Source: a bacterium (GTDB lineage Bacteria > Patescibacteriota > Saccharimonadia > Saccharimonadales > UBA4665). Taken from it: a stretch of 64,000 nucleotides of DNA. The notes beneath the pieces were generated by a model. It searched no databases and was not told the origin of the DNA. It saw only the letters and a list, made by a program, of their open reading frames with translations. Location: assembly GCA_021800155.1 (NCBI GenBank), contig JAJYZG010000002.1:1-64000 (forward strand), read 5' to 3'. Below, one piece after another: positions 58,823 through 63,570 of the stretch. The position numbers and the translations under genes are program-made. The first letter of the stretch is position 1; each line of letters starts with the position of its first letter.

Positions 58823-58897
58823 CGCGGGGTGGAGCAGCGGCAGCTCGCGTGGCTCATAACCACGAGGTCACAGGTTCGAGTCCTGTCCCCGCAACCA
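58823..58897 (+). tRNA. Initiator tRNA-fMet (CAU)
   Basis: Complete cloverleaf: acceptor CGCGGGG/CCCCGCA with the C1:A72 mismatch typical of initiators, D arm GAGC/GCTC with a short loop, anticodon loop CTCATAA, T arm ACAGG/CCTGT, and encoded ACCA. The usual three G:C pairs at the base of the anticodon stem are UGG/CCA here, a small deviation. An intrinsic terminator follows. The T arm and 3' end are the start of the repeat found twice more downstream. Confidence 0.95.
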
Positions 58898-59131
58898 GAT
58901 TGGACAGCCAAAATACGAGACCGTGTTCCTTGACCGGTCTCTATTTATTTACCCCTATTAAATCTTACATTTTGGCTCATATTTTTAAAATTGCCAAATG
59001 CAGCCACGTTAGGCTCGAACCATTGAAATGACCACTATTGCGCCAATTAACTCCTTACGCAGGTTCCAGAACTGACCGCTCCTCTATATAAGGGCTGGAC
59101 ACCTGCAAAACTGACTGGGCTCCATGACCGT
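58873..59131 (+). repeat. tRNA-derived repeat, copy A (with the real tRNA-fMet)
   Basis: The unit of ~255 bases starts at the T arm (GGTTCGAGTCCTG) and includes the tRNA 3' end and CCA, a terminator hairpin (58917-58950), the motif GGCTCGAACC at 59012-59021, and a stem CAGGTTCCAG/CTGGACACCTG at 59060-59105. The same blocks in the same order occur at 62170 and 63320. Copy A is part of the intact tRNA gene; it is the presumed original. Confidence 0.85.
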
Positions 59132-59152: not shown

Positions 59153-59473
59153 TTGTGCTACAGTATTGCTGTGTCAGGACGACCAAAACCGACTTATTTT
59201 AATGGTTGTCTTATCTGTGATGCTGTATCAAAAGCTAATAAGCAAGGTAAATCACTATCCGAAACGGAGCTTATGAAAGCTTTCAAGGCCCAGGATGCCA
59301 AAAACAAGAGCCAATATAAAGGTACTAATGGCATTAAGCTGAGTAAGCTTGCTCAGCAAAAGCTTAACGAGGCTCTTTCCAAGGGTGATAAAGTCGCTGC
59401 TATCAAGATTGTGCTCGATGCAAATAGATGCGGTTTAGCCGATGCTAAATCATATGTAGACGGACTGTTGTAG
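59153..59473 (+). CDS. L7/L12 C-terminal-like small protein
   Basis: Predicted protein of 106 residues. The start is TTG 59153 or GTG 59171; neither has a ribosome site. The end KVAAIKIVLDANRCGLADAKSYVD resembles the L7/L12 C-terminal helix that contacts translation factors; the N terminus (SGRPKPTYFNGCLICDAV) is different. It is the first gene of the island after repeat A. Role unknown. Confidence 0.6.
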   Translation: MCYSIAVSGRPKPTYFNGCLICDAVSKANKQGKSLSETELMKAFKAQDAKNKSQYKGTNGIKLSKLAQQKLNEALSKGDKVAAIKIVLDANRCGLADAKSYVDGLL

Positions 59474-59484
59474 GTTAACTTGCG

Positions 59485-61599
59485 CTACTTCCCTAACCTC
59501 TTATAAACTCGCTCACGCTGTTTAAATTGCCTATCAAGAAAGGGAATATTCTTATCATGATAGTCAATCAAGACCTTAGGGCTGGAGCTATGCATTAGTC
59601 GGCCAACATATTGGGTTAATTTGCCTTCAAAAGAAAAAGGGAAAGCCAAAACTAGTGCTTCAATGTTGTCGATGTGCATACCCTCCCCAAATATTTGCCC
59701 AGTAGCTAGTAACACCTGGTAATGCCCATCGCTAATTTGCTTCATTTTGGACACACGACTTGTAGCAGAATCATCTCCGGTGAATATAAGCGTCTCACAC
59801 TGACCCTTTAAATATAACTCCAGAATTTTAAGGTGTTCTTTGCGTTCGCTAAGTACAAGAGTTTTTCTACCTAGCTTGACTTGCTCGAGTATATCGCTTG
59901 CCACAATAGTATTACGGGAAGTGTCATAGCTGACTACATTAGCTATTAGATTAAACTGATCAGTCTTCCAGTTGAACGGCACAGCCAGCGCAGTCTCCCT
60001 AATAACAGTTTCAAAATGGACTGATTGCTTGTGTCCAGCCGTAATATAGCCGGACATGTCGGCAATAATATCACCAATATAAACATAGATTAGCTGCTCG
60101 TCATTATGTTTTCGCTTTGGTGTTGCAGTTAAGCCATACAAAAACTCTGGATTTAGATTAGCGATAACTTCACGGAACGTTTTAGCTGGAATATGATGAC
60201 ATTCGTCAATAATGATTGTTCCAAATTTATCCCGATACTTAGCCAAGTCTTGGGATCGAGCAAAACTTTGCAGTAACCCTACCGTGATTTCTTTACCAAT
60301 GCTTTTCTTGCTGCCAGAGAATCTACCAATTTGGGTTTTTGGAATATTTAAAAATTTTTGTATACGATCAACCCATTGATCAAGCAATTGCTGACGGTGA
60401 ACTAGTACTAATGCGGGCTTTTGGTGTTTTGCAATCAGCTCTAGCCCAATCATAGTCTTGCCACTGCTAGGTGGCGCAACAATAACTCCTTGCTTTTCGC
60501 TCTGAGCTAGTTCAACTATGTCTTGCTGTGCCTCTTTTAGTTTTATGCTGCTTTTAAATTTGCAATCAGGAAGTCTTGGAGTTACGAAGCTAACATTGTA
60601 TCCAATACTATTCTCATAGCAAAAATTGAGTAGTCTGGATAAAAAGCCACGTGGCAAAGTGACTGTTTTTGCAGATTCGTCAATAAGTCGAAAATACTTC
60701 TGAACTTTATACAGAGATTTACCCAACCGTTTTTTAGTCAGGTATTCAGTGCTAAGAAAATTTAGCTGTTCTTTCAGGTAACCGACTAACGGTCCACTTA
60801 ATTGAGATTTTTGTAGTGTAATATTTTGGCCAACGCTAATTTTGAGTCTCTTACGATTTTTAGTTGCATCACTATCTACTCCGGAGATAAGTTTGTTATA
60901 GGCGGTTGCCAACTCATCGGTTGAATAACGCTTGATGTTTTGGAGCACCGTGAACTGATCCTCGTAGGGTTCTGTTGTTATCGGATCAATAAAAACCGTG
61001 TTCTCATTTTTAACCGACTCACCTTGAAAGGGTAAGGCAATTAGATTACCAAGACCATTCTTAGTAATAGTGTCTTGGCTAGGGAATAGCCGATCAAAAC
61101 TAGCCTCTTTATCGAAGGCTGATAAGTTTAGAGCTTTACGAGCGACTTCAAGTCCGATAGCACGACTTTTATGACAAGGATAGGCTTCTTCAAAGAATAC
61201 CCAAACATGTCCACCGTTACCAGAACGCGACCGCTCTATGTAGGCGGTCAGCCCAACCTTATCCAACTCCTGTTGATAAGTTAAGCAGTCGTTTAGCCAA
61301 TTTCCCCCATCAAAATCTGCCGCTAAAAAGTAAGATGTGTTATCTTCTAGAATTAGGTATATGCCAATAGTCATTTGACCAGTTAAATGTTTTCGAATAA
61401 TGCCATCTGTAAGGGGTGTTGGTGCTTTATGTTCAAAATCTTTAATTGTGCCACCATGGGCTTTGTGGGCATTAAACTCATTCCAATCAAAAGTATAATC
61501 AGGAAAGTAACCACCTGTTTTATCCCAACGCCTCGCGAAAATATCCTCACGTCCCCTAAACAGGGATCTATAAAGCTTAATTTTATCTGTCGAATCCAT
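59485..61599 (-). CDS. Primase-helicase fusion (AEP-TOTE-like primase domain plus superfamily II helicase)
   Basis: Predicted protein of 704 residues. The N-terminal domain (~1-230) has an archaeo-eukaryotic primase pattern: DFD at 95-97, the GNGGHVW histidine (131), and NGLGNLIALPFQG. The helicase (~340-704) has Walker A PPSSGKTMIGLEL near 375-385, DECHH near 464, GLTATPKR and the final QYVGRLMHS. I relate it to primase-helicase proteins of the AEP-TOTE type, thought to act in anti-invader conflict, but the assignment is from memory. It is divergent from hicB with only 24 bases between starts. Confidence 0.82.
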   Translation of the reverse strand: MDSTDKIKLYRSLFRGREDIFARRWDKTGGYFPDYTFDWNEFNAHKAHGGTIKDFEHKAPTPLTDGIIRKHLTGQMTIGIYLILEDNTSYFLAADFDGGNWLNDCLTYQQELDKVGLTAYIERSRSGNGGHVWVFFEEAYPCHKSRAIGLEVARKALNLSAFDKEASFDRLFPSQDTITKNGLGNLIALPFQGESVKNENTVFIDPITTEPYEDQFTVLQNIKRYSTDELATAYNKLISGVDSDATKNRKRLKISVGQNITLQKSQLSGPLVGYLKEQLNFLSTEYLTKKRLGKSLYKVQKYFRLIDESAKTVTLPRGFLSRLLNFCYENSIGYNVSFVTPRLPDCKFKSSIKLKEAQQDIVELAQSEKQGVIVAPPSSGKTMIGLELIAKHQKPALVLVHRQQLLDQWVDRIQKFLNIPKTQIGRFSGSKKSIGKEITVGLLQSFARSQDLAKYRDKFGTIIIDECHHIPAKTFREVIANLNPEFLYGLTATPKRKHNDEQLIYVYIGDIIADMSGYITAGHKQSVHFETVIRETALAVPFNWKTDQFNLIANVVSYDTSRNTIVASDILEQVKLGRKTLVLSERKEHLKILELYLKGQCETLIFTGDDSATSRVSKMKQISDGHYQVLLATGQIFGEGMHIDNIEALVLAFPFSFEGKLTQYVGRLMHSSSPKVLIDYHDKNIPFLDRQFKQRERVYKRLGK

Positions 61600-61611
61600 A
61601 GTTACTTATGC

Positions 61612-61617
61612 TATTAT
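61612..61617 (+). promoter_or_regulatory. Overlapping divergent promoters of the helicase and hicBA
   Basis: TATTAT at 61612-61617, with TGC before it, is 6 bases before the hicB ATG. On the other strand CATAAT-like boxes face the helicase ATG at 61599. The two start codons are 24 bases apart, so both promoters overlap and could be repressed together, probably by HicB. Confidence 0.5.
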
Positions 61618-61623
61618 GTAATC

Positions 61624-61851
61624 ATGAAACACGTTATTCAATTCCATGTTTACAAAGGAGAGCAGTATTATATTGCTGAGAGCCTTGATTTACCTGTAGT
61701 TACTCAAGCTAAGACCTTAGATGAATTAGCTAAGAATATTGAAGAAGCAGTAAGCCTGCACCTTGAAGATGAAGATCCTGCGGTTTATAGTTTAGCACCG
61801 GATCCATCTGTCATGCTCAATATGGAGCTTGGCTTACCATCTTATGCCTAA
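61624..61851 (+). CDS. hicB: HicB-family antitoxin
   Basis: Predicted protein of 75 residues from ATG 61624; a longer open frame upstream to 61387 overlaps the helicase gene and is not needed. It has the HicB partial RNase H-like fold: FHVYKGEQYYIAESLDLPVVTQAKTLDELAKNIEEAV (in parts). The classical C-terminal DNA-binding domain is not obvious. Its end overlaps hicA by 8 bases. Confidence 0.78.
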   Translation: MKHVIQFHVYKGEQYYIAESLDLPVVTQAKTLDELAKNIEEAVSLHLEDEDPAVYSLAPDPSVMLNMELGLPSYA

Positions 61852-62086
61852 ATTAAAAAGACTTTCAGGCAGTGACATTATAAAAATACTAGGTCTGTTT
61901 GATTTTGTGCAGGTAAGTCAAAAAGGCAGTCATGTAAAACTGAGACGAATTGTCAACAAGGAAAACCAAACCCTCACTATACCCTTACATAAAGAACTTG
62001 ATAAGGGTACGGCTAATGCTATATTCAGACAGGTCTGTCGCTATGTTGACGAGTCCACGTTAAGAGAACACTTCTTTACCAAATAA
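61844..62086 (+). CDS. hicA: HicA-family mRNA-interferase toxin
   Basis: Predicted protein of 80 residues from ATG 61844 (MPKLKRLSGSDIIKIL); an ATG at 61829 is possible. The dsRBD-like fold shows the core GSHVKLRR with the catalytic-site His and the basic C-terminal half. It cleaves mRNAs. The antitoxin gene comes first here (hicBA order), which is less common than hicAB. Confidence 0.82.
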   Translation: MPKLKRLSGSDIIKILGLFDFVQVSQKGSHVKLRRIVNKENQTLTIPLHKELDKGTANAIFRQVCRYVDESTLREHFFTK

Positions 62087-62169
62087 CTGTAAAGCGAAGG
62101 AAGATTTTGATTAAACCAAAATGTAAGCTAGGATGTATTGAGCCTAAAATTTAAGCGGTAATAGGGGGT

Positions 62170-62430
62170 GGTTCGAGTCCTGCCCCCGCAACCAGATCAT
62201 GCACCCACAGGGGTAGACCGGGTTCCTAGACCGGTCTCTATTCATTTACCCCTGTTTGTTAAAGATTATTGTTACTAATTTATAAATACTTGGAATTGAT
62301 AGGCCATGGCTCGAACCGCCGAAATACCAAATTTATTGCATTTAACTGTTCGACTAAGTTCCAGAACCGTCCGCTACCCATTATGAGGACTGGACAGCCC
62401 AAAATCTGCCCGTGTTCCATGTCCGATGTC
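62170..62430 (+). repeat. tRNA-derived repeat, copy B
   Basis: GGTTCGAGTCCTGCCCCCGC followed by AACCAGAT copies the tRNA-fMet T arm and acceptor end. A terminator-like hairpin AGACCGG/CCGGTCT (62215-62237), GGCTCGAACC (62308-62317) and TTCCAG...CTGGA (62359-62394) follow. No tRNA 5' half precedes it. It separates the primase-helicase/HicBA interval from the PIN interval. The 440-base stretch 62087-62526 holds only this repeat. Confidence 0.85.
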
Positions 62431-62526: not shown

Positions 62527-62958
62527 TTACTTGTCTTTCAGCTGGGGAAATAAGTATTTTACTGAAGACGTATACATAATTTTTATATTATTAAATTCTT
62601 TAAGCGACAGCAGGTCCAGGTCGGCCGTGATGATTAAATCAGCCTTTGCTTCCAAGGCGCACTCCAATATTTTATTATCATCTGGATCGCGTTCTGTTAG
62701 CACGTCTACCTTTTGCAAGGGCCTCACAACCGTCACAGCTTCTTCTATACGATTTAGCCAGCGAACAACTGCAGCTCTAGGAAACCCAAACTTATTTTCG
62801 AGCTTATCTTGTAGCTCTTGTAATATTTCTGGCGAAGTGTAATAAGTACCTAAGTATTGTGCGGCTGAATCTTCGACGATCTTGTAGATAATGCTTTGCG
62901 GATTCAAAGCGGCAGCAATATATACGTTGGTATCAAGGACTACTCGGACAGGGTTCAT
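62527..62958 (-). CDS. PIN-domain toxin (VapC-like ribonuclease)
   Basis: Predicted protein of 143 residues. The start VRVVLDTNVYIAAAL carries the first conserved Asp of PIN nucleases; ERDPDDNKILECALEA and the later LIITADLDLL carry further acidic residues. It is co-transcribed behind its antitoxin, overlapping by 4 bases, as in toxin-antitoxin pairs. The target RNA is unknown. Confidence 0.87.
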   Translation of the reverse strand: MNPVRVVLDTNVYIAAALNPQSIIYKIVEDSAAQYLGTYYTSPEILQELQDKLENKFGFPRAAVVRWLNRIEEAVTVVRPLQKVDVLTERDPDDNKILECALEAKADLIITADLDLLSLKEFNNIKIMYTSSVKYLFPQLKDK

Positions 62959-63170
62959 CCTAAATATTTTTCTATATCGTCAACATTGGTAAGGTTGAGC
63001 TCATCCAGTTTTTTACGTATTTGCGCTGACATCTCTTTCCAGGTTCTTTCCCAAGCGGCCTGTTCTAATAGCCTGCGTACGACAACACTCTTAGAAACGC
63101 CGTCTTCCTTAGAGAATCTCTCGATCTCTTTTTTCAGTTTTTCGTCTAGTGAAATACTTAACGTTGTCAT
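62955..63170 (-). CDS. Ribbon-helix-helix antitoxin
   Basis: Predicted protein of 71 residues starting MTTLSISLDEKLKKEIERFS, a short beta strand followed by two helices (SKSVVVRRLLEQAAW), a ribbon-helix-helix DNA-binding pattern, and a longer C-terminal helix. It should neutralise the PIN toxin and repress the pair. On the minus strand TATACT (63177-63182) lies 6 bases before the ATG, so the message is probably leaderless. Confidence 0.82.
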   Translation of the reverse strand: MTTLSISLDEKLKKEIERFSKEDGVSKSVVVRRLLEQAAWERTWKEMSAQIRKKLDELNLTNVDDIEKYLG

Positions 63171-63319
63171 GCTAGTAGTATAACAAAAAAATTATCATTT
63201 TCCAAGAACATTATTAATAATTTTCCACTAAATTGACTGATCAAGAATGATTTTTACAGGGGTGATAACTATGCTAGGATACAGCGAGTCGCGGAAGCGA
63301 CGGTAGTACATTTTGGTTC

Positions 63320-63570
63320 GGTTCGAGTCCTGGCCCCGCAACCAGATCATGCACCAACAGAGGTAGACCGGGTTCCTAGACCGGTCTTTTTATTTTCTCC
63401 TTAAACCTCTACCCCAGTTATTTGGTTCGAGTTCTATCCTCTTTGGCTCGAACCACGCTAATATATTGAAATATCCACAACGCCCCTACAGAGGCGGTTC
63501 CAGAAGTGTCCACTTCTCTATATGAGGACCGGACACCTGGAACCCAGACCGGGTTCCATGACCAAAATGC
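63320..63570 (+). repeat. tRNA-derived repeat, copy C
   Basis: GGTTCGAGTCCTG with CCCCGCAACCAGAT repeats the tRNA end; the hairpin AGACCGG/CCGGTCT with a T-run (63365-63395), GGTTCGAG/CTCGAACC (63424-63454) and the long stem TTCCAG..GTGTCC/GGACAC..CTGGAA (63498-63542) follow. It separates the PIN interval from the YjzC-like interval. The gap 63571-63741 holds the palindrome and otherwise nothing that I can name. Confidence 0.85.

Follow-up and report, generated by a model that had tools for sequence, protein, structure and literature searches.

Which process brought a fused primase-helicase gene next to a hicBA toxin-antitoxin pair in this Saccharibacteria genome? The window, that is the whole stretch of 64,000 bp that was analysed, encodes the two head-to-head with their start codons 24 bp apart. 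The initial annotation took them for a regulated immune module, in which the toxin-antitoxin pair controls a promoter shared with the helicase. We suggest instead that part of a tRNA-anchored cassette array lies in the window, with an AEP-TOTE helicase and an exchangeable toxin as its cargo, and we consider this reading fairly probable.

The primase-helicase and the hicBA pair

The genes in question are the following.

59153 to 59473, plus strand: small ORF ending in a weak resemblance to the C-terminal part of L7/L12 (PF00542, E=0.01, under the cut-off); a fragment or passenger is probable
59485 to 61599, minus strand: AEP-TOTE primase domain with an XPB-like SF2 helicase, 704 aa, start codon ATG (Pfam, PDB profile, AlphaFold2/Foldseek, alignment and codon divergence)
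61600 to 61623, no strand: gap of 24 bp between the two start codons, of which the 21 bp next to hicB are identical to the hicB leader of a relative, G053
61624 to 61851, plus strand: hicB, 75 aa, HicB-like fold only (Pfam matches below cut-off; 2yzt)
61844 to 62086, plus strand: hicA, about 80 aa, HicA toxin family (PF07927)

The proposed fusion of an AEP-like primase to an SF2 helicase was confirmed. Residues 5-231 match the AEP-TOTE family PF22548 (E=1.2e-76, 257.8 bits against a cut-off of 27), and the match spans positions 1-228 of the 230 in the profile, that is the whole domain. The DFD and GGHVW motifs singled out by the initial annotation are intact. Pfam places the ResIII/DEAD/Helicase_C match at residues 356-668. 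In an alignment of 17 homologues, which are 31-77% identical to the window protein, D95, D97 and H131 are invariant. D169 is invariant or nearly so, as are the helicase motifs Walker A GKT (380), DECHH (465) and QxxGR (663). D95, D97 and H131 make up the metal-binding DxD and downstream histidine expected of an active AEP; the equivalent DxD is required for the activity of CAPP, the CRISPR-associated primase-polymerase (PMC8211822). Judged by a between-genus divergence of 60-64% at third codon positions against 11-14% at second positions, purifying selection seems to act on the gene.

An AlphaFold2 model (input of 19 sequences, pLDDT 85) matches XPBII in a Foldseek search, and an XPB/RadD-like fold was also indicated by a sequence profile search against the PDB. 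The N-terminal domain of the model matches the Marinitoga CAPP Prim-Pol 7p9j with a TM of 0.78 on the target, and structure prediction thus agrees with the proposed primase domain. Two narrower assignments were rejected. The protein scores 81.4 against a cut-off of 610 for the XPB equivalog NF045503, and it is not a plain XPB repair helicase, which agrees with the initial annotation. For the CAPP equivalog NF040561 it scores 87.6 against a cut-off of 200.

HicA carries the toxin domain of HicAB systems (PF07927, 51.4 against a cut-off of 27, E=1.2e-13). All matches of HicB to HicB-type families in Pfam are below cut-off, and the solved structure closest to it is that of the short Thermus protein TTHA1756 (2yzt, E=1e-3). 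Neither Pfam nor a structure-profile search gave an HTH or RHH match in the 75 aa protein, which thus differs from the DNA-binding HicB by which HicAB pairs regulate themselves.

If HicBA and the primase-helicase were one immune module, its expression would be set by HicB acting on a shared 24 bp promoter. The divergent arrangement at 24 bp and the frequency of toxin genes beside this helicase family agree with such a module. However, control of the promoter by HicB finds no support, since HicB is a single-domain protein of 75 aa with no recognised DNA-binding domain. Nor is hicBA conserved with the helicase: a survey of about 20 CPR loci and about 100 named or viral ones, which included phmmer and a motif search, turned up no further full-length AEP-TOTE helicase with hicBA beside it. 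The one relative with hicBA is the congener G053, at the same tRNA-Met locus and with a nearly identical hicB. Its hicA is broken by a stop codon, and hicBA is oriented differently, tail-to-tail with a C-terminal remnant of the helicase, with a tRNA-T-arm-like scar between them.

A promoter scan of the 24 bp gap gave only a weak consensus match. The 21 of 24 bases next to the hicB start are identical before hicB in G053, and because they are kept there despite the absence of the helicase 5' end, the gap is best read as the leader of hicB itself, travelling with hicBA. In the window, the junction falls just at the helicase start codon. The annotated 24-base spacing thus holds; its interpretation as a shared or overlapping promoter under toxin-antitoxin control is not supported, and we rejected the shared-promoter module on the comparison with G053. 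We consider a HicB-regulated immune module very improbable; the commonest partner in the family is Fic. hicBA is an ordinary toxin-antitoxin pair that stands beside the helicase by chance of assembly. As part of the array reading as a whole, it is fairly probable that cassette assembly, and not a shared regulatory promoter, brought the two together.

Repeats and cassettes behind tRNA-Met

The locus is explained by repeats, R1 (58873-59130) and P/R2 (62099-62425), which flank the region covered by the initial annotation and were left outside it. The elements of the array are as follows.

58823 to 58897, plus strand: tRNA-Met (CAT), the anchor, GGTTCGAG (ARAGORN); its 3' end is copied in each of the repeats
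58873 to 59130, plus strand: repeat R1, 258 bp, P'-arm-like, opening cassette 1 (repeat comparison)
62099 to 62167, plus strand: P element closing cassette 1, a block of about 70 bp with a covarying hairpin (nhmmer, E=5e-13)
62170 to 62425, plus strand: repeat R2, opening cassette 2 (repeat comparison)
62527 to 62958, minus strand: PIN-domain toxin of cassette 2 (TIGR00305); the same pair is found in arrays of other genera
62955 to 63170, minus strand: ribbon-helix-helix (RHH) antitoxin of cassette 2 (PF01402), 87-97% identical across genera
63243 to 63318, plus strand: P element closing cassette 2 (nhmmer, E=1.6e-17)
63320 to 63563, plus strand: repeat R3, opening a third unit that runs past the window (repeat comparison)

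In brief, the tRNA is followed by R1, the small ORF, the helicase and hicBA, then P, R2, the PIN and RHH genes, P and R3. The third unit encodes YjzC-like and DUF4238 proteins and then, further along the contig, a 424 aa serine recombinase and a PLD nuclease-like protein. The three R copies (245-258 bp, spaced by 3297 and 1150 bp) begin at the T-arm of tRNA-Met. R1 consists of the tRNA 3' end, a GACCG..CGGTCT hairpin, a variable middle and a second 18 bp motif. The 18 bp motif GACCGNGTTCCNTGACCG occurs six times in the 64 kb, two per repeat and all in R1-R3, where 0.12 occurrences are expected. Direct repeats of the tRNA 3' end mark the unit boundaries, as in tRNA-targeted elements. We infer that tRNA-Met (CAT) is the attachment site, with the crossover in or near its T-arm.

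In most arrays a conserved hairpin block of about 75 bp, P, stands directly before the internal cores. Among 20 copies of this hairpin, four pairs are kept at 90%, and there are 12 double-changed cells against 4.8 in shuffles. None of 500 shuffles reached the real covariation value, and most slid versions were far below it. An alignment of 26 copies across the family is shared downstream of the core and differs upstream between tRNA and cassette copies, a pattern that insertion at the T-arm should produce. When cassettes are compared, nucleotide similarity extends from R across P and ends inside the next repeat. Some repeats are partial or have no P element.

Integron attC sites are recombined as folded single strands. 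In comparison with shuffled sequence, R1 gives the better fold on both strands (z about -2.9 and -2.3), with little covariation; in the P hairpin the pairs covary. We rejected the repeat as a folded RNA, as RNAalifold gave 16 pairs with almost no covariation, and as a known RNA family, as there was no credible Rfam match besides tRNAs.

We propose that units consisting of a 258 bp repeat, one or a few conflict genes and a hairpin element of about 75 bp were inserted successively behind the T-arm end of tRNA-Met(CAT), each insertion restoring the 3' end of the tRNA. R and P may be the arms of an attP-like recombination site, with the enzyme supplied in trans. In the window, cassette assembly would have filled the toxin slot between the helicase and the P element with hicBA.

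Arrays in other Saccharibacteria and the movement of cassettes

Repeats are located behind the same tRNA-Met(CAT) in about 25-30 Saccharibacteria genomes; nearly all the genomes are draft MAGs. The cargo is mostly toxin-antitoxin genes and varies by genome; local seeds alone recognised toxin or antitoxin genes in 20 of the 28 repeat-bearing loci. It includes RHH and PIN, BrnTA-like, AbrB and Doc, MazF-like, VapBC-like and Fic genes, and furthermore the AEP-TOTE helicase, probable copper-transport genes and tRNA-Trp/Cys. It should be noted that the names BrnTA, AbrB/Doc, MazF-like and copper-transport were given by sequence recognition, without a Pfam search of each. The tRNA-Trp and tRNA-Cys genes are found behind repeats in G026 and G010 (L037:5604-5869 and L041:10671-10938).

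The order R, helicase, toxin, P is kept in G037, G056, G026 and G000 and partly in G040 and G032. The toxin between helicase and P end is Fic in G037 and G056, PIN/RHH in G026 and hicBA in the window. In the genus g23 the flanks match, with the tRNA on the left and HSP20 and pilin-like genes on the right. The insert from tRNA to HSP20 is 98 bp in G042, about 0.8 kb in G045, 1.6 kb in G044 and about 10 kb in G040. Comparison of these flanks shows a near-empty site in G042. G026 and G057 share the PIN toxin at 97% identity, and for G010 and G026 the figure is 92%; flanking core proteins are mostly about 50-60% identical between genera. At the level of protein identity, this shows a recent cross-genus spread of one cargo, the PIN module. 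The 100% identity of contig C32 of G009, nearly identical to the array of G061, was left out as evidence of transfer because the contig may be mis-binned. Related repeat blocks are found at tRNA-Asn in G536 and, in G027 and G036, with the 3' end of a different tRNA; a P element is located near tRNA-Gln in G003 and G005. The array structure, i.e. the repeats, their order and recurrence, the differing content and the near-empty site, is well supported by genome comparison.

Three further loci should be mentioned. A second repeat family of about 80-96 bp, e.g. GGTAGGCGTGATAGGAACGAATTG, is present in three to four copies at L005:13788-15717 (contig C27 71787-73716). The copies separate a MazF/AbrB-like pair, a VapBC-like pair and a short ORF, which suggests another toxin cassette array. 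In G041 (L262:1694-2304) a RelBE-like pair directly follows tRNA-Met, with a terminator-like hairpin and no 258 bp repeat. G526, which belongs to another family of the order, has a copy of the repeat at the end of a 441 aa ORF (L244:8494-8731), with no tRNA nearby.

We found no tyrosine integrase or recombinase within the arrays examined, and no recombinase gene common to them. Cassettes 1 and 2 encode no integrase, and the serine recombinase is located only beyond R3. A tyrosine recombinase is encoded in 12 of 14 array genomes. In ten of the 12 it is the only one and has the length of Xer; G026 and G056 encode a second, and the two array genomes with none are incomplete. Serine recombinases vary among array genomes. 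The 424 aa serine recombinase is 89% identical between G000 and G004, in both of which it lies beyond the repeats, and a remnant is present in G028. As it flanks arrays in these three genomes only, with relatives located elsewhere, it is at most a candidate for the array's own enzyme.

We favour a recombinase acting in trans, with RecA exchange after transformation as a serious rival. Saccharibacteria are transformable, and the 258 bp repeats, at roughly 70-90% identity, would supply the homology for natural transformation and RecA recombination at the repeats or the conserved tRNA locus; a site-specific recombinase would then play no part. The arrays contain no integrase, and some of the array pattern could arise from RecA exchange at the repeats instead. 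However, cassette homology ends near the T-arm/P boundary, conservation of the P and P' blocks extends past the tRNA core and includes a covarying hairpin, and related elements occur at tRNA-Asn and near tRNA-Gln. Movement by RecA alone therefore seems to us rather unlikely, though not strikingly so.

The arrays could also be ordinary tandem tRNA islands, in which old full elements with integrases of their own have been reduced to toxin-antitoxin relics. Elements are known to accumulate in tandem at the 3' ends of tRNAs. The arrays do contain decayed genes, such as helicase fragments in G056, G047 and G057 and the broken hicA in G053, and the 424 aa serine recombinase beyond the repeats would fit as well. 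On the other hand, units down to 1.15 kb in size with one intact toxin-antitoxin pair recur nearly unchanged across genera, which implies that the small unit itself moves, and the array loci examined from the family include no intact integrase-bearing version. The repeat was likewise not found in viral and phage collections by exact-pattern scans and blastn; a single pattern match in a viral contig lay inside a gene and was dismissed as chance. We regard a tandem-island origin as unlikely and retain the tRNA-anchored cassette array as the preferred reading.

The AEP-TOTE helicase family and its toxin partners

The AEP-TOTE helicase is present in 14 of 380 genomes of the wider phylum, and a scan of GTDB species gave more than 500 candidate relatives or loci. 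Among 68 same-strand upstream neighbours there were 20 Fic, 6 AbiEii, 3 HipA, 2 RhuM, 2 YhcG-type nucleases and 2 PIN proteins, as well as 4 with AlbA_2 and 5 with RecG-type HATPase_c_4, perhaps partly the same proteins. Of the 51 upstream neighbours with 200 aa or more, 19 carry a Fic motif, compared with 12 of 945 other ORFs (Fisher p=7e-19, a guide only, as the loci are not phylogenetically independent). Fic counts are from Pfam and the Fic motif; calls from local profiles were set aside because they included some AlbA_2 or HTH proteins. Fic and helicase genes stand as pairs, roughly 0-32 nt apart, in G037, G036, G040, G195, G253 and G111, and in an Acinetobacter plasmid HigBA is directly upstream of the helicase in an operon. 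Many homologues have no recognisable toxin neighbour, and adjacency of Fic and helicase is not proof of joint function. From gene neighbourhoods, AEP-TOTE helicases appear recurrently beside exchangeable toxin or abortive genes. The proposed link to conflict systems is borne out: the family is a known conflict-related one, and toxin neighbours are a genuine family theme.

DUF6155 or similar-looking proteins are located beside AEP-TOTE helicases in several phyla (L053 of G027, L154, L172, L173 and L182). In Sphingobium plasmid pTB1 (L282) the helicase gene and the end of a TniB-TniQ operon overlap, which gives the impression of a Tn5053/Tn7-like transposon that includes the helicase.

We suggest that the helicase probably acts against invading DNA, opening or remodelling foreign or stalled DNA, and that the primase-polymerase would act on the strand thus exposed. 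The separate, exchangeable toxin, usually Fic and sometimes PIN, AbiEii, HipA or HigBA, may be a cell-arresting arm or an addiction module. Both this anti-invader function and the recombination mechanism are inferred. Alternatively, the helicase may be a replication or repair enzyme of a mobile element and not a conflict gene. Its XPB/RadD-like fold would suit this, and the family rides on transposons and plasmids, with a member beside a Tn3 transposase in Escherichia albertii and another beside TniB-TniQ in Sphingobium. Yet the 3.3 kb cassette has no other replication or mobility gene recognised by Pfam, and toxin or abortive partners are strongly enriched. We find this role doubtful and prefer a conflict function.

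TOTE conflict systems are named for TPR, OB, TBP and Effector in a passage of PMC12458937 that cites Aravind et al. 2022. The window protein shares their primase domain, with catalytic residues intact, fused to an SF2 helicase, whereas its locus has toxin partners in place of the TPR, OB/cold-shock and TBP core genes. No TPR, OB or TBP genes were among the Pfam matches of neighbouring genes in the window, nor among the top neighbour families elsewhere (25 families listed each). The CAPP-helicase type combines a CRISPR-associated primase-polymerase with a helicase (PMC8211822). The likeness lies in the order, Prim-Pol domain then helicase, and in the structural match to 7p9j, but no cas gene was among the window neighbours scanned with Pfam, and the equivalog score is below cut-off as given above.

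Like integrons, the arrays are anchored series of short mobile units in which toxin-antitoxin genes abound and each unit has a repeat resembling a recombination site. Unlike integrons, the window array is anchored by a tRNA, its site is about 330 bp with the tRNA 3' end and arms, no IntI integrase is encoded beside it, and the arrays examined encode no tyrosine recombinase. Islander-type tandem islands and tycheposons insert at a tRNA 3' end, rebuild the gene and carry variable cargo, and the arrays resemble them in this; the Saccharibacteria units differ in being cargo-only cassettes of 1-3.5 kb with no integrase or replication genes. Tn3-family transposons carry toxin-antitoxin passengers. 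There, too, such genes and this helicase family are carried by mobile DNA, but the mobility apparatus differs from that of tRNA-anchored cassettes.

The helicase belongs to a known conflict-related family, whereas the tRNA-anchored array is apparently undescribed. In the literature covered, mostly non-subscription papers, we found no description of tRNA-anchored arrays in Saccharibacteria or of the pairing of Fic with AEP-TOTE helicases. We speculate, tentatively and as a possibility short of a probable one, that Saccharibacteria own an integron-like, tRNA-landing P-core-R system, in which cassettes of toxin and anti-invader genes lack an integrase and a host or mobile enzyme acts in trans, and that AEP-TOTE helicases are a general anti-invader core with plug-in toxins. 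If true, this would reveal how bacteria that are highly reduced and depend on a host keep a stock of toxin and defence genes and trade them, and one tRNA gene would be a simple address for finding such genes. For the AEP-TOTE helicases, a large family without known function, the results give a testable rule: seek the exchangeable toxin next door.
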